Source: Trichobilharzia szidati (Eukaryota; Platyhelminthes; Trematoda; Strigeidida; Schistosomatidae). From it: a stretch of DNA of 64,000 nt. Location of the stretch: positions 122,628,110 to 122,692,109 of the forward strand of contig OX235279.1 of NCBI GenBank assembly GCA_944472155.2, written 5' to 3'. The notes below the pieces were generated by a model. It ran no database searches. It was given only the letters and a program-made list of their open reading frames with translations, and had not been told where the DNA came from. Position numbers and translations under genes: made by a program. Below, in pieces: positions 5,328-64,000 of this stretch. Numbering within the stretch: position 1 is the stretch's first letter; every line of letters begins with the position of its first letter.

Positions 5328-5345
5328 TCGTGGTTGGGCTCACCA
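5328..5345 (-). promoter_or_regulatory. Primer-binding site of the Gypsy element
   Basis: The minus strand reads TGGTGAGCCCAACCACGA one base downstream of the 5' LTR. The TGG start complements a tRNA CCA end. The first ten bases match the site in the palindrome at 11786-11803, and the rest differs. Confidence 0.7.
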
Positions 5346-10720: not shown

Positions 10721-11317
10721 AGTACAGATTGTCTAAAAATTAAGGATAAGATTACGGGCAATAGAAGGATTTTCACGCTTTAAACATATTTCAAAAATCT
10801 GTCAGACAATTGATTTTTTATCTATGAACGTAGCAGAGTGTGCAAGTGCCACTGTAAAATACTCAGTAAGAATACATCTCACTTCAGGTCAGACGCGCAT
10901 TTATCTACATGCCATAAGAATTCATTACTTGAAATATGCAACAGACAGTCACACAATGGCACCCTTAAGTTTCACATCCTTACAAACATTACGCAGGTAT
11001 TTTACCGATGAAATGTTCACCGCACTAGTCATAAAGATGGTCAAGTAAAGAACAGAAAATTGCATATTATTACATAATCTTTGTCACTGACTATACAAAC
11101 TCAAAAAATAGAAAATTGCACCCTGTGAGTCAGGACTAGCCTCAAAGGGAATTCATATATTTCATAAATTCAGTGGACCACCGCAAATAATTCCTGATAA
11201 GACTGATCAGTAGCCTGGGGAAATCCCTCTTCTTTGTCATACCATTATTAGGGACAAAATCTGATCAAGACCTTCATAATTCTAAGAGACTACTGTGCAG
11301 CTGATGTGTCTTACCTT
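10721..11317. other. Intergenic, nothing recognised
   Basis: AT-rich DNA between a LINE relic and the LTR palindrome. The open frame at 10824-11048 has no recognisable features. Confidence 0.4.
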
Positions 11318-12270
11318 TGTGGAGTCCTCAAAAATAAACTTATCCAAATTTTACTATTATGTAAAAAATGAACATATTGTACACTACTTTGTTTTAACCA
11401 AAAACTCTGTACTTCGGACTTCCCTCGAGTTTTAAATAAATACATAATTCTGCCTTCGACTCTCCGTCTTCTCCACCATCTCAACTGCCGTCGATCAATT
11501 ATAACAACCTGCTTTCTATCTCGAATTTTTGCAGGATCACCGTAGCCTCCTTCTACGCACTTTGGTCGACCTCCGGCAACGTCAACTCTGGAGAATTAGA
11601 ACTGGAGCAGTCTTCCCGCAGCACTTCTGGAATCCATTACGTTTATTGTGGAATTTGGATCTTTGTAAACCCAAGTAACAAAACTTTAATATATTCTTCC
11701 CGTAAACTCAATTGATTTGGTATTTTGTTTTCTATTTGAATTTGGGTTAATAAGCTAACAGAGCAAAAGGTCCACCACAATAATTATCACGTCGGGCTCA
11801 CCAATTATTGTGGTGGACCTTTTGCTCTGTTAGCTTATTAACCCAAATTCAAATAGAAAACAAAATACCAAATCAATTGAGTTTACGGGAAGAATATATT
11901 AAAGTTTTGTTACTTGGGTTTACAAAGATCCAAATTCCACAATAAACGTAATGGATTCCAGAAGTGCTGCGGGAAGACTGCTCCAGTTCTAATTCTCCAG
12001 AGTTGACGTTGCCGGAGGTCGACCAAAGTGCGTAGAAGGAGACTACGGTGATCCTGCAAAAATTCGAGATAGAAAGCAGGTTGTTATAATTGATCGACGG
12101 CAGTTGAGATGGTGGAGAAGACGGAGAGTCGAAGGCAGAATTATGTATTTATTTAAAACTCGAGGGAAGTCCGAAGTACAGAGTTTTTGGTTAAAACAAA
12201 GTAGTGTACAATATGTTCATTTTTTACATAATAGTAAAATTTGGATAAGTTTATTTTTGAGGACTCCACA
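11318..12270. mobile_element. Palindromic LTR-PBS-LTR element (two inverted LTRs)
   Basis: Two arms of 468 bp (11318-11785 and 11803-12270) are reverse complements with a single mismatch found by eye (11560 region, GTAGCCTCC against GTAGTCTCC). Each arm begins TGTGGAGTCC at its outer edge, so the element starts TG and ends CA. The centre on the minus strand is TGGTGAGCCCGACGTGAT (11803-11786): an 18-nt primer-binding site beginning TGG, close to the tRNA-Trp-type site I recall for CsRn1-like Gypsy elements. Flanks are CCTT on both sides (11314-11317 and 12271-12274), the same 4-bp duplication size as the two complete Gypsy insertions here. It therefore looks like two LTRs joined tail to tail through one PBS and inserted by an integrase. 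There is no coding region; short frames inside are chance. Confidence 0.9.
11786..11803 (-). promoter_or_regulatory. tRNA primer-binding site at the palindrome centre
   Basis: The minus strand reads TGGTGAGCCCGACGTGAT. It is 18 nt long, the length copied from a tRNA 3' end during plus-strand strong-stop synthesis. It directly follows the inner end of one LTR (ACAATAAT). Confidence 0.8.
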
Positions 12271-13094
12271 CCTTTCCCTCTCCACCAGATGGTAGCATCT
12301 CAGGTGACATATCTTAATCTTTCAAATGGGAACTACACTGCCATGGGGTACTGGTGTTCTCACAGTGTCTTAAGCTTTTGGAACTGCATGCCGGAGGATG
12401 TGGTTTCTACCTTCTCCATCTAGCAGTCTTAAAAGGGAATAGACTAGTGCACATACTGATTAAGAAGGGATTAAAAGATTTCGAACACCTTAGTCTCAAA
12501 CCGAAATTCTGAATCTGAGTAGTTTTCTATGTACTATGGATTTTCAACATTTGAAGTACCTCTTAATAAACTTGTTATTCATTTAAATTGATTGACCTCG
12601 TTTTAAAACGCTTTTTCGACAATCGCGGGTCAGCTTGTAGACGGCCGTATGTTGGTTGATCAGCTGATGCTTACACACTACATTTGTTGGAGAAATCTAA
12701 AATTTTCCTCAGTATTCGTCGTTACACAGTTTTATGCTGGTATACTAGGTAAAAGCCAATGGGATGTGGCAGTGTTAGTGAAAATAGGGAAAAATGAGGC
12801 ATTTTTGTGGTCGTAAATTACGGCAATTTTACAAATAGTTAAAATAGTCACTTTTTCGTTTACAAAGTGTCAAGTGACTTAAAGAAACACATTACAACTT
12901 CTAGTGGTTTTTGCGGTTCAAGAGATTAAACATCAACACCATAAGTTGGGCTACTTCATTATGATAATTATTTTCACTTTCTTTGTTTTCTATCTTTGCT
13001 ACTGTCTCAAAGGTCCTCTACTATGCATCCCTTTAAGGAAATCTACGGAAACATCCAGGAATTTTGTGAACATAGTATTCAGTCTTTTCTCGGC
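12271..13094. other. Intergenic, nothing recognised
   Basis: AT-rich. The open frame at 12904-13143 has a hydrophobic stretch but no splice or start context that would make it a gene. Confidence 0.4.
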
Positions 13095-15961
13095 AGAGGC
13101 CTTATGTTTACAGGCAGATGCGGCGTCCATTTTTTCTGACTAAAAATATTGACTGATGTAGCTGTCCTTAACTTTTTTTGTTAATGCGAAGTCAATATCG
13201 CTATATTTCTTGAAGTGGTCCATTGAATCACTAGTTATCAGACTTTTCCCACAAACTAAACATAAAATGACAGCAACCATGTTATTTAACCGTAAATCAT
13301 GTAATTTAAATAATACTTATCCATGTCTATACAACTTGTGTTTCCTACATTTGTAGGAATAAATATGTACCTTATTATATTATAATTGCTAACTATACTT
13401 ACTAATCGTATGTGTAATTTATCGAATTGATGATGCCTGTAAACTGGCGTCCCTCATGTACACAAATGAGAATATATTATTATTATTAACGTATTTCTCA
13501 TACTTTCTAGAACTCTATTTAAATTCTGAGTTTTTAGTGGTAATGATGTCTAAATCTTTTGGACTCTTTTGTCAGGTTATAGCTGATTTCTGTGGATTAA
13601 TAGCCCTTGGTGCTGAAGAGAATTATTTCCATAGTGTCATTGATTTTGCACATGTCGAACCAATAATACAAGTATTCCTCTCAATTCGTTCGTATACTCT
13701 ACCTGACTGAATATTAATCAGTCTTTGTGAAAGATGTAAGCAACAGAGTTTACGGGTTTACCTTTGAATTACTAAGTAAAGGCAGATGTTCGGGGGAGTT
13801 AATTGATAAAATGGTTATGTTGCGGCCAAATAAGGTGGATATGTCCACATCTCAAAGAAGATATTTAGATTATAAAGCGTATGAAGTTATATGCCGTCTG
13901 AGCTAAATATACCAAACGACTCGCAATTCAGAGTCACAAAGCGGAAACAGATCAGTGTGAGAAAGTTAGCTTGCAATTCCTACATACCGTCTTGCGCCAT
14001 GAGGAAAAGACTGTATCTATGCTACTGGACGTGAGACTCAATACAACTGCGGGCACAATGTTAATCTCAAAAAGAATACCTAAAGTTATCGGCCACAGAA
14101 CACGGTACGTTACTACCAGTTCATCTGATCGAATCATCAAACGTTTCCCAGTTGCTGCAAAATTTCCTAATAGTTTACCCTTAATCGCTACACTAGTGCG
14201 TGTTACTGGTGTTGCTGGGACACAATCGCATTACAACAGGAGGAATACAGATTCATTGGAGAAGTATTCACCACACAACAGTTAGATTTCAGCTGTTCAG
14301 ATAATTGTGATTAGTAATCCCTTGTTACTGTTAGCGGATTCTACCCACGACCACAGTAGACATTTTCATCCATAGGAGTCTGAAAGTGTTCAAGAAAAGC
14401 ATAGCTAACTTGGATAGTACATTTATGGTCTGAATACAAAATGTTTCCAGATGACTGACTGATAAGTAATAACAAGTAATCACTTTACAAACAATATACA
14501 GATGTGGCTAAATAGTTTCCATTAAACTCAAGGAACTTCACAAGTTATCGTTGGTAGACCCCTTGCAGGCACACAGTAGCAACATGCAGTGATAGGATTA
14601 TCTAATAACAAGTTGTGAACTAATTCCCAAAGCTTGTACAGGAAGTTTAGCACGAATGATAACGGCTTTATGACATGTATTAACATTATCAACGGCTATA
14701 GTTGTAGTGATAATAGCGTCCATGTTCATGTTGACTGTAACAACAACAATAATAGCTATTATTTTAGCGATGAATTCATTTTTATATATCAATAAAATAT
14801 ATCAGTAAGTCTTATGAGTGAAGTGCTTACTTACTTTCACTGTTGTAATCTCACAATACTGATGGGGTCAACTAGTTTATTCCAACTGAACTCCAGATTA
14901 ATTCTGAAAGTGAATGGGGTTCCTATTTATTCATATACAGGACTCTGATGTTTAAAAATTATCTCCCGGCTTCACTGCAGAGGATAATTGGTAATACCAG
15001 ATGAGATTCTGTAGGCTAAACATTTCTCAAGTCTTAATCTTGTGAATATACTGTGAGTAAAATTTCGTTCCCACTTGAAATGATTTCGGTAATTCTTATT
15101 TAATTTAGTCAAAGAAATTGTTTGTTGGCACGATCCCATCAAATCAGGAATTGTCGCGGCTCTTGGGTTGACAACCCTTTTGAGTCTGTCTTGTATGTCC
15201 CTAATATCTTTTATCGCCTACGCCGGGATGTCGTTAATATGCTGCACCACGGCTTCGAAACTTTATAATGCTATTACTCTTCCGTTCAAATCAAATTCAT
15301 CTAAAGATCCATTTAAGTAAGTTTGATTCTGATGAAATTTTATCTCTTATATCTCTGGTTGTCCAATTATTTCTGTCGGAACACTATTACCTATGCAAGT
15401 ATGTAAGCGACAATACATCCCAGCCTATTAAACACTACTATCGTACTAAATGAAGTTGTTTCATTACTGGTAACCCACATCTCACTTTTTCTGGCTCAAA
15501 CATATAAGGTGAAATCAAACAAGTCTCTTCATAGTTGATCAGATACAATGTTTTCATTCATTGAGTTTAAAAATTAAGGGTGTTAATTTCTAGTGAAAAA
15601 AAGTCCACCAGAGAAATGTTATACTTTTTAGCACTTGAAGTTGAGATATCTTCGGTAAACAAATGATTGTTTAGTAAAGATTGTAGCTCGTTGGCTTGTG
15701 CACTCAACTTTCAGTCAATGGGTCCCGGATAGGAATCCCGTTGAATTTATTTAAGCCTAGACAACTCGGTTGTATTACTAGTTCTCACACAGTATGTAGC
15801 TTACAGTTTGGTACATAATTCTGTTGCAAGTAATGGAGTGCTAAATGTATCAAAATAGAATTCCTTGATTTGAATTAGTAGATATATACTATCAGTGTGT
15901 AACATTCTATTTTACTTACTATAAATCTACTTACGATAATTGCTGTTATATTAGAACTAAC
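13095..15961. repeat. Segmental duplication, copy 1 (uninterrupted)
   Basis: 13095-14919 matches 52697-54519, and 14918-15961 matches 62957-64000, all in the same orientation. By eye the first part differs at about 1% of positions (roughly 20 changes), and the second at only four positions, all within the exon at 15109-15316. This copy is continuous where copy 2 holds 8,439 extra bases. The match begins abruptly at 13095, in a LINE-tail context, and continues to the window edge. Confidence 0.9.
13100..13490 (+). repeat. 'Tail' LINE family: 5'-truncated 3'-end copy
   Basis: It carries TTTTTTGTTAATGCGAAG, then CTTATCCATGTCTATACAAC, and ends in ATTATTATT at 13477-13490. It is the same insertion as 52697-53090, copied by the segmental duplication. 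Confidence 0.7.
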
Positions 15962-40752: not shown

Positions 40753-41044
40753 TGTGAAGAAGACAAGACTGAGGAGACTGAAAGGATTGTTTATTTCGTG
40801 AAACGTATGGTACATAGCTAAATTTGGAATACCATATTCTAAACCGGCCATTTGCACATCTTCACCACATCCTTGACGAATTGGTCGAATATCATCTCAT
40901 TCGATAGCTTCTTGGATTCTGCATCATATGGCAACATTCTTCTCATGGTTCTCTTCTTTGATTGCTCTTTTCAGTGTGCCAAACATGTTGTTACTTCGTT
41001 CCTGATATACTACTTATATCGGATTATAAGTAGCACTCACCACA
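40753..41044 (-). repeat. 3' LTR of the young Gypsy element
   Basis: 292 bp, identical by eye to 44903-45194. The last 31 bases of the polyprotein frame overlap its inner end. Confidence 0.95.
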
Positions 41045-44000
41045 CTCGCCCCCTCATTATAATGTCTCTCCTGTAACCGCCTTGATCGCCGCACAGACGT
41101 TTCTTCCTGCTGCTCTTCTGGTACCTCATCTTGACATTCTTCTCTCCATCTTTGTAGCAGACTGGCGTTTACTCTTTTCTCTTTATCTCCTCTCTTTATT
41201 GTGTACACTGGACCGCGTCTCGATGTGACCACATATGGTCCCTCCCACTTCGGCAGAAGCTTTCCTGATCCTGGTCCACTTCCGGTAGTATACTTTCGTT
41301 CTCTACATTTCACCTGGTCACCTACTTCAAACAGCTTCCAAGCTTTGATTTGTTTCTTGCCATAATTTTCGATGTCTTTCTTGCGCTTCTCTTGTATATT
41401 CTGAATAGCTTGTTTCCGCTCATTTGTCCATCTCTTACTGTTCCATTTTTGTTGTGTTGGCCAAGTCTTATGGTGCACCGGTAAGCGTGGTTTCCTCCCA
41501 TACATCAGCTGGAAAGGCGACTTTTTTGTTGTCCCTTGTACTGTGGCATGATGTGCTAGTAATACCAACGGTAAGTCAGTTTCCCAGTTGCCTCTTTTCG
41601 CAGCTAACCATTCCTTGAGTGTACGATTGTTCCTTTCGGTTAAGCCGTTTGTCTGCAGATGATACGGAGTCGCTCTAATCCTCTTAATACCCAGTGCCTC
41701 CAGACGAGTCTTGAACTCCTCACTTTCAAAACAGGGGCCTTGATCTGTCAATATCATTTTCGGTACACCATGATCCGCCACAATATGTCGAATGACCGCC
41801 TCGGTTACGGTCTTGGCGCGCTGATCTGGAATCGCTACAGCATTTACCCACCGCGTGGCGTGTTCCGTCATCATTAAAATGTATTGATTTCCACTTGCTG
41901 TTTGAGGGAAAGGACCCATTATGTCCACGGACCATAAGTCACCAACCGCCGTTACGGGTATCGTTTGTAGCTGCGGTCGAATGCACCGATCACCCTTCAT
42001 CAATTGACACTGTGGGCAAGCGAGTACGTAGTTTGCAATATCGCCTCTCATGTTTGGCCAGTATGTACTTTGGCTCACTAGGTCGTATGTTCGTGTAACT
42101 CCTGTATGGGCTAGTTGGTGGCATTCTTGAATCACCCCACGACGAAGGCTCTTTGGTATCACTGTAACCCAGCTACCATCACTGTCTTTCCAAGTTAGGA
42201 CGCCGGCAGCGTTTAGTTTGAGTCTATGTTTTTGCTGCAGTAGCATCTTTAACTCTTTATTCTCAGCTGCCATTTCAATTTCTTTCCCTTCACGTATCAT
42301 CTGCATGACTGTCTTAAGAGTGGGATCCGACTTCTGGTGGCGAACAAGTTGTAAGGGATCTTGCTCCAAAGCGTTTACTGGATACGCTACTTCTGGTAGT
42401 TCAGTCTCATTATCTGATCTCGACAAATAGTCAGCTATTACATTTTCTTTTCCTGGAATATGTCCAATCGTGAAGTCATACTCTTGTAGGCGTAACATCC
42501 GTCGTGATAACTTCCCTCGTGGATCCCGTGCTGTTTTCAACCACTGAAGAGGTTTGTGGTCGGTCTCAATGTGGAATCGGCGGCCGATCAGATATGGTCT
42601 CCATTTTTCTAGTGCCCATACGATAGCTAAACACTCCTTTTCCACCGTAGAATACTTCTGTTCTGCAAGTGTCAACACACGGCTAGCGTATTCAACAACC
42701 CGATCTGTTTGTCTTAAAACAGCACCTATACCATAATCACTGGCGTCTGTCGAAACTGTGAACTGCTTCCCCGGCGCTGGCAGTTTCAACGTCATCTGTT
42801 GACCATCTAACAGCTTTTTAATTCGCTCAAACGTTTGCTGTGCCTCTTCCGTCCACATGAATTTCGCATCACTCAGCAACATATATAGCGGTTTAGCTAT
42901 CTCATTGAAATTTTTGACAAATCGGCTGTAGAATGCCGCTCTTCCCAAAAACTGTCTCAGCTTTCGCTTTGAATTTGGCACTTCGCTGGTTCTGACCGTC
43001 AGGATTTTCTCCGGCAATGGCCGTATTTCGCCATTTCCCACTTTGTAACCCAGGAGGACAACCGTGTTTTTAGCTATTTGGGACTTGTTCTTATTAATCC
43101 GCAGTCCAAAGTCATCAATTCTCTTTAAGATAGCTTCGATGTGGTCTATATGGTCGCTTTCTGTCTCACTATACACCACCAAGTCATCTCCATATACTTC
43201 TACGTTCTTCAGACCCTTCAGTAATAAGTTCATTAATCTTCTGAATGTAAATGGGGCACCTACCAATCCAAATGGCATTCGTTTAAACTGGTATTGTTTC
43301 TGCCCGACTGTGAAAGCTGTCTTACTTCGATCACTTTCTGCTATTGGGATTTGCCAGTAACCCGATCGTAGGTCGAACACGGTGAATAACTTGGCTTTAT
43401 GAAGGCGATCAAGAGTTTCTGTTACGGTAGGCATTACACACTGTTTTACTTCGGTGAGGCTATTCAGCTGTCTGAAGTCGACACAAAATCTATATTTCCC
43501 GTTAGCTTTCTTCACCAAAAGGATTGGCGAACTGTACGGACTGTCGGCTTCTTCGATTATTCCGTCGTTTAACATTTCTCTGACTTGTCGGTTAACTTCT
43601 TCTTCAAGATGAACGGGAACTCGTCGCGATGAAAAGACTGTCTTCCCCGTATCCTTCAGTGGGATGTTATGCTTTACCTTATCACAATCACCGTATGGGT
43701 CTCCATCACTAGTGAATAAACCGGCATATTTACTCATCAACGTGGTTAGACGTGGTGCTTCTTGCTGAACAATGGTTGTGGTTTCCACCTCAGCGACTTC
43801 ACTATTCTCATGTATCGCGAATTGCCCGTGTTTTGTGACTACTTTTCTATTCTTCATATCGATTACAGCTCCTACTTCTCTGAGAAAGTCTGCTCCCAAA
43901 ATCGTTCGTCTTATATCAGAAGTTACAATAAACGGATATCGTATTTTTCCTGCTCCAATCTCTACAACGCAGTCTGAAACGCCAAGAATGTGCAACGGAT

Positions 44001-44877
44001 GTCCTCCTACCGTCTGAACTGCTAATGTGCACGGCCTTATTTCCTTACACTGTTCTCTACCTATCAACGAAACTGCCGCCCCTGTGTCGATCAAACAAAC
44101 TATTTCTTTTTCGTTCACTCGTAATCTCCCGTACACTGAACCTCTTTCGACTAACCCGACCACCTCTAAACGCGAGCGAGAAAAAGAAGGAAGACTGTAT
44201 CGTTTAAGGTTTTTCTGCCTTCTTTTCGGGCAGTTTCTCTGCCAGTGACCGGTTCCTCCGCAAGCAAAGCACCTGTTGTTTGTTTTTTTCTGCATAGCTG
44301 CCACCTGTTGTTTCAACTCTTCAATCTGGTCTTCAATCTTCTTGGAATCTTGGCCCTCCGACATCACTGGAGCAACATGCGAGGTCATTATCTGCCTTGT
44401 CACCTTGGCCATTTCATAGACATCCATTGGCTGAGCTGCGTCAACTAGCTGCAACTGATGAGCGATATCTGTCGGGACGCATTCGAGGAACTGAGATGCC
44501 AGCAACTGCTCCCGTGAATCTTCGTCTAGGGTGGGTAACGCACGTCGCAGGTGATTCGTCAGCGTTACTGCGAGAACCAACGGATCCCCATCCTTGCCAA
44601 GTGTCAGCGCCCGAAACTTCTGCAGCGCCTCTTGTCTGTCCGCAGGGCTGTCGAACTCGCACACGAGCCTCTCGACGACCTTGTCCCACGCCGTCTCACC
44701 TTCCAGCTCCCGAGCGTTGTCGTACGCATCCTTCGCGCGGCCCCTCAGCAGCGTTCCCAAGACCACCAGCTTCGCCTTCTGCTCCTGCACTCCAACCAGC
44801 TCCGCGACAGCTTCGAAGTCCCTGAGGAACGTCCGCACATCTCCATCCTCGAACACATGTGGCCACGGCACCTTCAT
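41014..44877 (-). CDS. gag-pol: Gypsy Gag-Pol polyprotein
   Basis: One frame; it is open to 44916 inside the LTR, but the first ATG is at 44877 (MKVPWPHVFEDGD), so the protein is about 1,287 residues. Residue numbers below count from 44916. Gag with a CCHC knuckle at 216-229 (CFACGGTGHWQRNC). Aspartic protease DTGA at 277-280. Reverse transcriptase about 455-640 with YGDD at 575-578. RNase H about 718-835 (STDASDYGIGAVL, ETDHKPLQW). Integrase with zinc-binding H933, H937, C967, C970 and catalytic D998, D1058, E1094 (DD35E). A GPY/F-type segment (WEGPYVV) is near the C-terminus. No chromodomain was seen. All catalytic residues are present. The Gag and Pol frames are fused, with no frameshift needed. 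Confidence 0.95.
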   Translation of the reverse strand: MKVPWPHVFEDGDVRTFLRDFEAVAELVGVQEQKAKLVVLGTLLRGRAKDAYDNARELEGETAWDKVVERLVCEFDSPADRQEALQKFRALTLGKDGDPLVLAVTLTNHLRRALPTLDEDSREQLLASQFLECVPTDIAHQLQLVDAAQPMDVYEMAKVTRQIMTSHVAPVMSEGQDSKKIEDQIEELKQQVAAMQKKTNNRCFACGGTGHWQRNCPKRRQKNLKRYSLPSFSRSRLEVVGLVERGSVYGRLRVNEKEIVCLIDTGAAVSLIGREQCKEIRPCTLAVQTVGGHPLHILGVSDCVVEIGAGKIRYPFIVTSDIRRTILGADFLREVGAVIDMKNRKVVTKHGQFAIHENSEVAEVETTTIVQQEAPRLTTLMSKYAGLFTSDGDPYGDCDKVKHNIPLKDTGKTVFSSRRVPVHLEEEVNRQVREMLNDGIIEEADSPYSSPILLVKKANGKYRFCVDFRQLNSLTEVKQCVMPTVTETLDRLHKAKLFTVFDLRSGYWQIPIAESDRSKTAFTVGQKQYQFKRMPFGLVGAPFTFRRLMNLLLKGLKNVEVYGDDLVVYSETESDHIDHIEAILKRIDDFGLRINKNKSQIAKNTVVLLGYKVGNGEIRPLPEKILTVRTSEVPNSKRKLRQFLGRAAFYSRFVKNFNEIAKPLYMLLSDAKFMWTEEAQQTFERIKKLLDGQQMTLKLPAPGKQFTVSTDASDYGIGAVLRQTDRVVEYASRVLTLAEQKYSTVEKECLAIVWALEKWRPYLIGRRFHIETDHKPLQWLKTARDPRGKLSRRMLRLQEYDFTIGHIPGKENVIADYLSRSDNETELPEVAYPVNALEQDPLQLVRHQKSDPTLKTVMQMIREGKEIEMAAENKELKMLLQQKHRLKLNAAGVLTWKDSDGSWVTVIPKSLRRGVIQECHQLAHTGVTRTYDLVSQSTYWPNMRGDIANYVLACPQCQLMKGDRCIRPQLQTIPVTAVGDLWSVDIMGPFPQTASGNQYILMMTEHATRWVNAVAIPDQRAKTVTEAVIRHIVADHGVPKMILTDQGPCFESEEFKTRLEALGIKRIRATPYHLQTNGLTERNNRTLKEWLAAKRGNWETDLPLVLLAHHATVQGTTKKSPFQLMYGRKPRLPVHHKTWPTQQKWNSKRWTNERKQAIQNIQEKRKKDIENYGKKQIKAWKLFEVGDQVKCRERKYTTGSGPGSGKLLPKWEGPYVVTSRRGPVYTIKRGDKEKRVNASLLQRWREECQDEVPEEQQEETSVRRSRRLQERHYNEGASVVSATYNPI

Positions 44878-44882
44878 CTCCG

Positions 44883-44900
44883 ACAGAGGCAGCGACACCA
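44883..44900 (-). promoter_or_regulatory. Primer-binding site of the young Gypsy element
   Basis: The minus strand reads TGGTGTCGCTGCCTCTGT two bases after the 5' LTR. The start codon at 44877 follows only about six bases later, so there is almost no leader. Confidence 0.65.
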
Positions 44901-44902
44901 AA

Positions 44903-45194
44903 TGTGAAGAAGACAAGACTGAGGAGACTGAAAGGATTGTTTATTTCGTGAAACGTATGGTACATAGCTAAATTTGGAATACCATATTCTAAACCGGCCA
45001 TTTGCACATCTTCACCACATCCTTGACGAATTGGTCGAATATCATCTCATTCGATAGCTTCTTGGATTCTGCATCATATGGCAACATTCTTCTCATGGTT
45101 CTCTTCTTTGATTGCTCTTTTCAGTGTGCCAAACATGTTGTTACTTCGTTCCTGATATACTACTTATATCGGATTATAAGTAGCACTCACCACA
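44903..45194 (-). repeat. 5' LTR of the young Gypsy element
   Basis: 292 bp, TG...CA, identical by eye to the other LTR. It would contain the element's promoter. Confidence 0.95.
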
Positions 45195-52696: not shown

Positions 52697-54519
52697 AGAG
52701 GCCTTATGTTTACAGGCAGATACGGTGTCCATTTTTCTGACTAAATATATTGACTGATGTAGCTGTCCTTAACTTTTTTGTTAATGCGAAGTCAATATCA
52801 CTATATTTCTTGAAGTGGTCCATTGAATCACTAGTTATCAGACTTTTCCCACAAACTAAACATAAAATGACAGCAACCATGTTATTTAACCGTAAATCAT
52901 GTAATTTGAATAATACTTATCCATGCCTATACAACTTGTGTGTCCTACATTTGTGGGAATAAATATGTACCTTATTATATTGTCATTGCTAACTATACTT
53001 ACTAATCGTATGTGTAATTTATCGAATTGATGATGCCTGTAAACTGGCGTCCCTCATGTACACAAATGAGAATATATTATTATTATTAACGTATTTCTCA
53101 TACTTTCTAGAACTCTATTTAAATTCTGAGTTTTTAGTGGTAATGATGTCTAAATCTTTTGGACTCTTTTGTCAGGTTATAGCTGATTTCTGTGGATTAA
53201 TAGCCCTTGGTGCTGAAGAGAATTATTTCCATAGTGTCATTGATTTTGCACATGTCGAACCAATAATACAAGTATTCCTCTCAATTCGTTCGTATACTCT
53301 ACCTGACTGAATATTAATCAGTCTTTGTGAAAGATGTAAGCAACAGAGTTTACGGGTTTACCTTTGAATTACTAAGTAAAGGCAGATATTCGGGGGAGTT
53401 AATTGATAAAATGGTTATGTTGCGGCCAAATAAGGTGGATATGTCCACATCTCGAAGAAGATATCTAGATTATAAAGCGTATGAAGTTATATGCCGTCTG
53501 AGCTAAATACACCAAACGACTCGCAATTCAGAGTCACAAAGCGGAAACAGATCAGTGTGAGAAAGTTAGCTTGCAATTCCTACATACCGTCTTGCGCCAT
53601 GAGGAAAAGACTGTATCTATGCTACTGGACGTGAGACTCAATACAACTGCAGGCACAATGTTAATCTCAAAAAGAATACCTAAAGTTATCGGCCACAGAA
53701 TACGGTACGTTACTACCAGTTCATCTGATCGAATCATCAAACGTTTCCCAGTTGTTGCAAAATTTCCTAATAGTTTACCCTTAATCGCTACACTAGTGCG
53801 TGTTACTGGTGTTGCTGGGACACAATCGTATTACAACAGGAGGAACACAGATTCATTGGAGAAGTGTTCACCACACAACAGTTAGATTTCAGCTGTTCAG
53901 ATAATTGTGATTAGTAATCCCTTGTTACTGTTAGTGGATTCTACCCACGACCACAGTAGACATTTTCATCCATAGGAGTCTGAAAGTGTTCAAGAAAAGC
54001 ATAGCTTACTTGGATAGTACATTTATGGTCTGAATACAAAATTTTTTCAGATGACTGACTGATAAGTAATAACAAGTAATCACTTTACAAACAATATACA
54101 GATGTGGCTAAATAGTTTCCATTAAACTCAAGGAACTTCACAAGTTATCGTTGGTAGACCCCTTGCAGGCACACAGTAGCAACATGCAGTGATAGGATTA
54201 TCTAATAACAAGTTGTGAACTAATTCCCAAAGCTTGTACAGGAAGTTTAGCACGAATGATAACGGCTTTATGACATGTATTAACATTATCAACGGCTATA
54301 GTTGTAGTGATAATAGCGTCCATGTTCATGTTGACTGTAACAACAACAATAATAGCTATTATTTTAGCGATGAATTCATTTTTATATATCAATAAAATAT
54401 ATCAGTAAGTCTTATGAGTGAAGTGCTTACTTACTTTCACTGTTGTAATCTCACAATACTGATGGGGTCAACTAGTTTATTCCAACTGAACTCCAGATTA
54501 ATTCTGAAAGTGAATGGGG
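52697..54519. repeat. Segmental duplication, copy 2, left part
   Basis: Matches 13095-14919 with about 1% differences by eye, including a LINE-tail copy at 52697-53090. It stops at GAATGGGG, after which 8,439 bases absent from copy 1 follow. Confidence 0.9.
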
Positions 54520-62956: not shown

Positions 62957-64000
62957 GGTTCCTATTTATTCATATACAGGACTCTGATGTTTAAAAATTA
63001 TCTCCCGGCTTCACTGCAGAGGATAATTGGTAATACCAGATGAGATTCTGTAGGCTAAACATTTCTCAAGTCTTAATCTTGTGAATATACTGTGAGTAAA
63101 ATTTCGTTCCCACTTGAAATGATTTCGGTAATTCTTATTTAATTTAGTCAAGGAAATTGTTTGTTGGCACGATCCCATCAAATCAGGAATTGTCGCGGCT
63201 CTTGGGTTGACATCCCTTTTGAGTCTGTCTTGTATGTCCCTAATATCTTTTATCGCCTACGCCGGGATGTCGTTAATATGCTGCACCACGGCTTCGAAGC
63301 TTTATGATGCTATTACTCTTCCGTTCAAATCAAATTCATCTAAAGATCCATTTAAGTAAGTTTGATTCTGATGAAATTTTATCTCTTATATCTCTGGTTG
63401 TCCAATTATTTCTGTCGGAACACTATTACCTATGCAAGTATGTAAGCGACAATACATCCCAGCCTATTAAACACTACTATCGTACTAAATGAAGTTGTTT
63501 CATTACTGGTAACCCACATCTCACTTTTTCTGGCTCAAACATATAAGGTGAAATCAAACAAGTCTCTTCATAGTTGATCAGATACAATGTTTTCATTCAT
63601 TGAGTTTAAAAATTAAGGGTGTTAATTTCTAGTGAAAAAAAGTCCACCAGAGAAATGTTATACTTTTTAGCACTTGAAGTTGAGATATCTTCGGTAAACA
63701 AATGATTGTTTAGTAAAGATTGTAGCTCGTTGGCTTGTGCACTCAACTTTCAGTCAATGGGTCCCGGATAGGAATCCCGTTGAATTTATTTAAGCCTAGA
63801 CAACTCGGTTGTATTACTAGTTCTCACACAGTATGTAGCTTACAGTTTGGTACATAATTCTGTTGCAAGTAATGGAGTGCTAAATGTATCAAAATAGAAT
63901 TCCTTGATTTGAATTAGTAGATATATACTATCAGTGTGTAACATTCTATTTTACTTACTATAAATCTACTTACGATAATTGCTGTTATATTAGAACTAAC
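62957..64000. repeat. Segmental duplication, copy 2, right part
   Basis: Matches 14918-15961 with four differences, all inside the exon. It continues past the window edge. Confidence 0.92.
63148..63355 (+). CDS. Reticulon copy 2, first RHD exon (gene runs off the window)
   Basis: Equivalent to the exon at 15109-15316, with the same AG acceptor and GTAAGT donor. Four changes: two silent in Lys codons and two amino-acid changes (Thr to Ser at GLTTLL, Asn to Asp at KLYNA). The frame is intact, so this looks like a working exon of a second reticulon gene. The remaining exons would lie beyond 64000. Confidence 0.85.

Follow-up and report, generated by a model that had tools for sequence, protein, structure and literature searches.

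An inverted LTR dimer in the genome of Trichobilharzia szidati as a probable integrated product of plus-strand strong-stop DNA

A 953-bp palindrome in the genome of the trematode Trichobilharzia szidati very probably represents a dimer of strong-stop DNA from a CsRn1-like Ty3/gypsy element, inserted into the chromosome by integrase through its two U3 ends. It lies within a stretch of 64,000 nt (C8:122628110-122692109, hereafter the window), and the genome searched for parents and relatives comprises 1.11 Gb in 907 contigs. There is no second copy of the palindrome within the 64-kb window; related ones occur elsewhere in the genome. An earlier note on this DNA had described two 468-bp arms with a single difference, flanked on both sides by CCTT, and both observations stand: the arms, 468 nt long and separated by 17 nt (11318-11785 and 11803-12270), differ only at 11546, which is C where the partner arm has T, and CCTT is found at 11314-11317 and 12271-12274. 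The probability that two random 4-mers of the window agree by chance is about 0.005. The note had also held that the centre is exactly an 18-nt primer site; the 18-mer is indeed there, at 11786-11803 on the minus strand, but it is accompanied by one extra A at 11785, and the arms lie 17 nt apart. Read along the minus strand, the order is LTR-ATAAT-TGGTGAGCCCGACGTGAT-A-ATTAT-inverted LTR, with the following features:

11314..11317, no strand: left copy of the target-site duplication (TSD), CCTT
11318..11779, plus strand: inverted LTR copy with U3 outward, 462 bp, TGTGG...CCACA, its length taken from genomic 3' and solo LTR copies
11780..11784, plus strand: ATAAT spacer from the U5 end to the primer site, found after 5' LTRs and missing after 11 of 12 sampled solo or 3' LTRs (one keeps ATA)
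11785..11785, minus strand: single A, a putative remnant of the 3' CCA end of a second molecule's tRNA (CA or CCA in sister loci)
11786..11803, minus strand: 18-nt complement of the 3' end of tRNA-Trp, ending just before m1A58
11786..11792, minus strand: ACGTGAT, the last 7 nt of the 18-mer, missing from the primer site of all 21 sampled parent copies
11804..11808, minus strand: ATAAT spacer of the LTR that bears the tRNA copy
11809..12270, minus strand: LTR that bears the tRNA copy, U3 outward, 462 bp
12271..12274, no strand: right copy of the TSD, CCTT

The palindrome contains no element sequence downstream of the primer site, as expected for strong-stop DNA, and tRNA and Rfam scans across the whole window returned no matches.

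To what element do the arms belong? The LTR of the palindrome has at least 45 genomic matches (40 of 497 candidates were scored). Twelve of the 45 listed matches fall within inverted structures; the other 33, taken with their flanks, comprise 21 5' LTRs with leader and 12 3' or solo LTRs. Since 11 of these 12 end in CCACA (the remaining one, L039, being the copy that keeps ATA), the LTR is 462 bp long, instead of the 467 bp given in the earlier note, and ATAAT is a spacer. The 5' copies reveal what naturally follows the LTR. Eighteen of the 21 leaders read TGGTGAGCCCG and then TTTTGG, with small changes, and three, all from one subfamily, read CGCTTCGAAC; ACGTGAT follows the primer site in none. 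Dimers are not the only carriers of the 18-mer: it also precedes the leader in a related copy outside this sample (L096, of the AAAAAT subfamily). In the natural leaders (L019-L051, and 5331-5345 of the window, minus strand) two stretches match tRNA-Trp, one of about 10-11 nt at the acceptor end and another near the T-loop (CGAAC/GAACACG), with ACGTGAT skipped, a pattern that is possibly that of a bipartite primer site.

The search for the parent that the earlier note had proposed thus yielded a CsRn1-like element of 5.07 kb from LTR to LTR. One full-length copy, L015, contains a Gag-like ORF, in which DUF7041 is the only domain match, and a Pol ORF with reverse transcriptase (RT), RNase H and an integrase core. 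The primer site, TGGTGA[G/C]CCCG, is of the tRNA-Trp type, and a 4-bp TSD is found both around the palindrome and around a parent copy (GGTC, L050/L051). PMC2582038 gives a tRNA-Trp primer site and 4-bp TSDs as features of CsRn1-like elements, and by these two features the parent appears CsRn1-like; the Pol domains expected of the clade are those of the single copy L015. Four LTRs of the same family (F1) stand in tandem at C4:122291457-122307117 with a spacing of about 5.07 kb, which suggests a multimeric array of the parent element.

Because ACGTGAT is lacking from the primer site in all 21 sampled parent copies, we think that this part of the centre was probably copied from the tRNA-Trp primer itself, up to the stop at m1A58. 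The centre would then hold tRNA-derived nucleotides beyond the genomic primer site that end at m1A58, and an LTR followed by a tRNA copy with this end is, judging by its sequence, the structure of plus-strand strong-stop DNA. The earlier note had counted parent LTRs that never carry the 18-nt site as evidence against its reading. In the sample of 21 they indeed never carry it in full, yet their lack of it argues for a strong-stop origin, because the 7 missing nucleotides are tRNA complement; L096, outside the sample, does carry the 18-mer. Our tRNA-Trp reference was inferred from genomic fossil copies together with general tRNA-Trp background, and the 3' part of the host gene is expected to read ATCACGT with CGGGCTCA, with A at position 58 and G at position 37. 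The m1A58 residue acts as the stop in HIV-1 and is also present in tRNA-Trp primers, according to PMC13191261. In Ty3, as PMC5371799 describes it, priming at the polypurine tract (PPT) is repeated, strong-stop DNA that carries a copy of the tRNA is displaced, and plus-strand strong-stop DNA builds up in particles as a dead end; in the model given there, the first DNA to copy the tRNA is a dead end because this copy is not the source of the integrated primer site. The likeliest source of the extra A at 11785 is the final nucleotide in the CCA end of a second tRNA; sister palindromes have CA or CCA at this point.

These sister palindromes emerged from a search for the 18-nt complement, in which two positions were left open. 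The pattern has 96 genomic matches, and its reversed control none. We examined 92 of the 96 sites, the other four being part of a tandem array at C8:27.89 Mb (C8:27892979-27899576: five copies of the 18-mer spaced 1645 bp apart, of which the one examined, L135, has an F6 LTR). Twenty of the sites (L120-L139) were examined with 200 nt on each side, a span in which longer-range inverted arms would be missed. At 73 of the 92 sites the 18-mer is no more than 20 nt away from a U5 end belonging to one of six LTR families (F1-F6); for the other 19 the set used gave no LTR assignment. Most of the 92 are not inverted dimers, and some run into an element leader (e.g. L096 and F6 loci). Among the 92 we count about 12 inverted LTR dimers of independent origin, which represent five LTR families; this count rests on an intact 18-mer, whereas dimers without it exist: at L013 (C8:126148129-126149103, not counted) an inverted F1 dimer with TSD TATA has, in place of the tRNA copy, a 58-nt filler that shows no clear match in the parent element. 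A single match of the 18-mer in IMG/VR (L001) falls in a GC-rich, phage-like coding region without LTR-like repeats and was taken as chance.

Direct dimers, in which LTR, 18-mer, remnant and inverted LTR follow one another, occupy eight sites and represent six independent insertions: the window, L010 and L080 (all F1), L081/L082 (F2), L098/L099 (F3) and L060 (F6). L081/L082 and L098/L099 are each a single insertion duplicated with its flanks; L098 and L099 have diverged by about 5% and retain the same structure. The remnant after the 18-mer is A in the window, CA in L010 and L081/L082, and CCA in L080, L098/L099 and L060, as if 1-3 nt of the second tRNA's CCA end had been kept. The arms of L010 are identical (468/468); its tRNA copy has a different base (GACCCC), and its source was perhaps an isodecoder with CGGGGTCA. 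Internal deletions affect one LTR in L082 and L060, and 24 nt of U3 are missing from one arm of L081.

Six further inverted structures have a longer tRNA copy or filler at the centre: L101/L120/L121 (F4, taken together as a single insertion, with flanks available for L101), L079 (F3), L102/L139 (F2), L055 (F2 with an inverted F6), and L057 and L119 (both F6). The second LTR is incomplete in L057, L079 and L102, and L057 and L102/L139 were counted as inverted structures having no testable second U3 end. Eight loci with an inverted LTR piece less than 800 nt away (L066, L067, L094, L095, L114, L115, L132, L133) were left uncounted as partial or complex. In seven F6 elements (L056, L071, L091, L103, L122, L131, L135) the 18-nt tRNA copy is followed by a leader of the TGATTGATGG type, as if strong-stop DNA had been transferred to the leader via TGAT microhomology; in L119 the F6 leader is seen reversed and reads TGGTGAGCCCGACAGAGCTGATTGATGG.

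Three other candidates were rejected. L011 (C3:71468260-71469194) consists of two opposite LTRs and three copies of GGTT, in the order GGTT-LTR-GGTT-inverted LTR with ATA-GGTT, without a tRNA copy; one of its flanks recurs inverted at C3:71732084. L012 was set aside for the flank it has in common with L011, and L014 is a chromosomal palindrome, in which solo LTRs with TSD GATG sit inside a larger palindrome.

How did the dimers enter the chromosome? An exact 4-bp TSD is present at eight of ten testable independent dimers: CCTT in the window, GATG (L080), AATA (L082), TATC (L098), CATT (L101), ATTG (L079), GCTG (L055) and ATAG (L119). The flanks of L010 and L060, the latter situated in a simple repeat, agree at three of four positions, as do those of the partial structure L067 (GTTT/GTTA, with 54 nt of the second LTR), whose inclusion makes the exact count eight of 11. 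The TSDs support insertion of the integrase type through two U3 ends with a 4-bp staggered cut, and the dimers indicate that integrase in vivo requires no more than two U3 ends. The earlier note had also suggested looking for sister palindromes with different 4-bp duplications, and these were found at independent sites. Its central idea, that strong-stop products were joined and then inserted by an integrase through two U3 ends, appears largely right in light of these sisters, of a parent with RT and integrase, and of a tRNA sequence at the centre that none of the 21 parents has.

The events might be reconstructed as follows. As the sequence supports, RT would start the plus strand at the polypurine tract, copy the LTR, the spacer and 18 nt of tRNA-Trp, and halt at m1A58; this first plus-strand strong-stop DNA would then be displaced, as Ty3 leads one to expect. 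A second strong-stop DNA may have been made after RNase H had cut the tRNA and left 1-3 nt of its CCA end, such that it would end in LTR-spacer-T, -TG or -TGG. In an end-to-end jump, the first molecule's 3' end could next switch to that of the second and copy as far as the latter's U3 end, whereupon the 3' end of the second would copy back across the tRNA segment and through the LTR of the first. This would give a 953-bp duplex with two U3 ends, no ligase being needed, which integrase would insert with the 4-bp staggered cut that the TSDs record. The same pathway, with variations, would have made about eleven other independent inserts from several LTR families, one of them a heterodimer. End-to-end template jumping of this kind between two strong-stop DNAs explains the six direct joins and, with second-strand fill-in, the two U3 ends that are left.

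There are other scenarios that might give rise to such a structure. The earlier note had considered, next to two joined products, a single strong-stop DNA that folded back and primed itself, the LTR hairpin being opened later and inserted. At the window, fold-back or the joining of two double-stranded LTR ends by the host would leave identical sequence, and the joining step is one that we infer; the near identity of the window arms and the full identity of those of L010 also sit well with fold-back. Nevertheless, we consider it quite unlikely. The 3' end of the window's strong-stop DNA forms no Watson-Crick pair at the join (there is one G-T), as against 5 bp of complementarity at position 219 of the same DNA, and all six independent direct joins fall 1-3 nt into the tRNA CCA end. 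A hairpin, moreover, offers one end where a 4-bp TSD needs two. L055 consists of an F2 LTR whose tRNA copy extends to about position 39, another tRNA copy (about 32 to CCA) and an inverted F6, between GCTG duplications: because two LTR families are joined there, fold-back of a single molecule is impossible at this locus, and the choice left by the earlier note is tipped towards two joined products. Host end-joining would mean that two double-stranded LTR ends entered one site, each through its U3 end, and were then fused by their U5 ends; we regard this as somewhat unlikely. It would equally account for the CCA remnants of 1-3 nt, as 5' ends left by RNase H, and the filler at L013, L057 and L119 resembles the outcome of error-prone joining. 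However, it requires a clean U3 end on an unfinished strong-stop duplex as well as a chromosome break; the loss-free 18-nt junctions argue for a polymerase, and the join in L055 fits end-to-end copying of two tRNA-extended DNAs.

It is very improbable that an LTR was simply duplicated in inverted orientation within the chromosome, or that the structure is an artefact of assembly. Chromosomal inverted structures do exist in this genome, L014 among them, and two dimers have been duplicated with their flanks (L098/L099 and L081/L082). Yet both outer ends of the palindrome are U3 ends next to the same 4-bp duplication, whereas an artefact made from a solo or full-length LTR would put a U5 end against one flank; the tRNA-type sequence of the centre is not found in the sampled parents, structures of this type occupy about 12 independent sites, and L098 and L099, about 5% apart, have the same structure. 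Long inverted arms, a short centre and a TSD might also suggest a DNA transposon with long terminal inverted repeats, of the foldback or MITE type. This we give almost no credence, as the LTRs that make up the arms come from an element that has RT and integrase, in contradiction to terminal inverted repeats of a transposase family, and the centre is a tRNA complement. We therefore retain the integrated dimer of two strong-stop DNAs as the preferred reading.

Beyond the dimers, 22 loci extend past position 58 into further tRNA-Trp complement. For a test of modification signatures we used the 15 with at least 13 nt of copy past the 18-mer, dropping seven shorter ones as possible natural leader and, as duplicates, L120, L121 and L139. 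The copy lengths of L059 and L079 were set by eye at 20 nt; a looser rule gave 23 and 25 and would add mismatches elsewhere and one more at position 37. The base opposite position 58 is T in five loci, A in five and C in five, so that ten of 15 differ from the reference (Fisher p about 9e-11); all seven dropped loci have T, giving ten of 22 over the full set. Position 39 is reached by ten loci and position 37 by four, of which three differ at 37, and at all other positions together 10 of 326 bases differ. Modified G37 in the form of m1G37 occurs in tRNA-Trp, and the errors at 58 and 37 fit m1A58 and a modified G37. Eight loci (L068, L075, L078, L093, L097, L130, L133, L138), most of them beside the U5 end of an LTR, have tRNA-Trp copies that reach 16-50 nt past the 18-mer; A or C stands opposite m1A58 in all eight; four of them run beyond position 37, and three of these four differ at it. 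A complete tRNA-Trp(CCA) lies against the LTR in L078 (1501-1575, minus strand), the sole ARAGORN call among the 16 loci submitted and also an Rfam tRNA match. Type I hammerhead ribozyme matches are seen in the flanks of L093 (2469-2514) and L068 (2374-2420), the L068 one below the gathering score.

The window contains several other retrotransposon reading frames. A Pol fragment of one further element shows 98% identity to a Trichobilharzia szidati protein across 89% of the fragment; a Pol search of viral_contigs found no relative. The repeat at 13095-15961 recurs in two parts (52697-54519 and 62957-64000), split at 54519/62957, and the 8.4-kb gap between these holds a frame with endonuclease and RT domains. 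The two 292-bp LTRs of another element, at 40753-45194 (minus strand), are identical and enclose a single open frame of 1308 aa, which suggests that this element may have been active recently.

It seems likely, if with less assurance than for the window locus, that non-autonomous LTR derivatives include a class of integrated strong-stop dimers that arises repeatedly, each made of a pair of plus-strand strong-stop DNAs (in some cases from different families that shared a particle) joined by their tRNA-copied ends and inserted via two U3 ends. A fossil record would thus be preserved in the genome, showing where RT stopped or misread the tRNA (58 and 37), where RNase H cut within the CCA end, and which elements were packaged together. 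Plus-strand strong-stop DNA, normally transient or a dead end, is heritable here, and steps that otherwise need particle biochemistry can therefore be read from the genome, from the m1A58 stop, read-through and misreading of modified bases to RNase H cuts, second-strand transfer and co-packaging. The dimers constitute a predicted annotation class that LTR finders based on direct repeats would be expected to miss, and their long inverted LTRs are candidate sources of double-stranded RNA, with transcripts that could form long hairpins. Among titles and abstract openings of the best-ranked papers in the open PMC literature, we found no description of integrated LTR-tRNA-inverted LTR dimers.

The palindrome resembles several known structures in part. 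TRIM, LARD and SMART elements are likewise non-coding LTR derivatives, moved by the enzymes of a parent, but they possess two direct LTRs with PBS and PPT, whereas the palindrome lacks a PPT and carries its LTRs in inverted orientation. With a solo LTR the palindrome has in common the LTR sequence, a short TSD and the absence of a coding region, yet it is not a single LTR between TSDs: a solo LTR ends in U3 on one side and in U5 on the other and contains no copy of a tRNA. In 2-LTR circles and autointegrants, by-products of reverse transcription that join U3 to U5 or insert internally, LTR ends are joined as they are here, where the connection is U5 to U5 via the tRNA copy and two U3 ends are inserted. 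The CsRn1 clade (CsRn1, PwRn1, AgCR) shares with the palindrome a tRNA-Trp primer site starting TGGTGAG and a 4-bp TSD, according to PMC2582038, which reports TGT...AAA or ATA variants for the LTR ends of its elements, in contrast to TGT...ACA here. Elements of the clade are full-length, while the palindrome is made of two LTRs and a tRNA copy without an internal region. There is also a likeness to the plus-strand strong-stop DNA of Ty3, Ty1 and retroviruses in the PPT-recycling model, in which an LTR is likewise followed by a tRNA copy; for Ty3 this DNA is described in PMC5371799 as an unintegrated intermediate, whereas here it has dimerised and become integrated in a chromosome.
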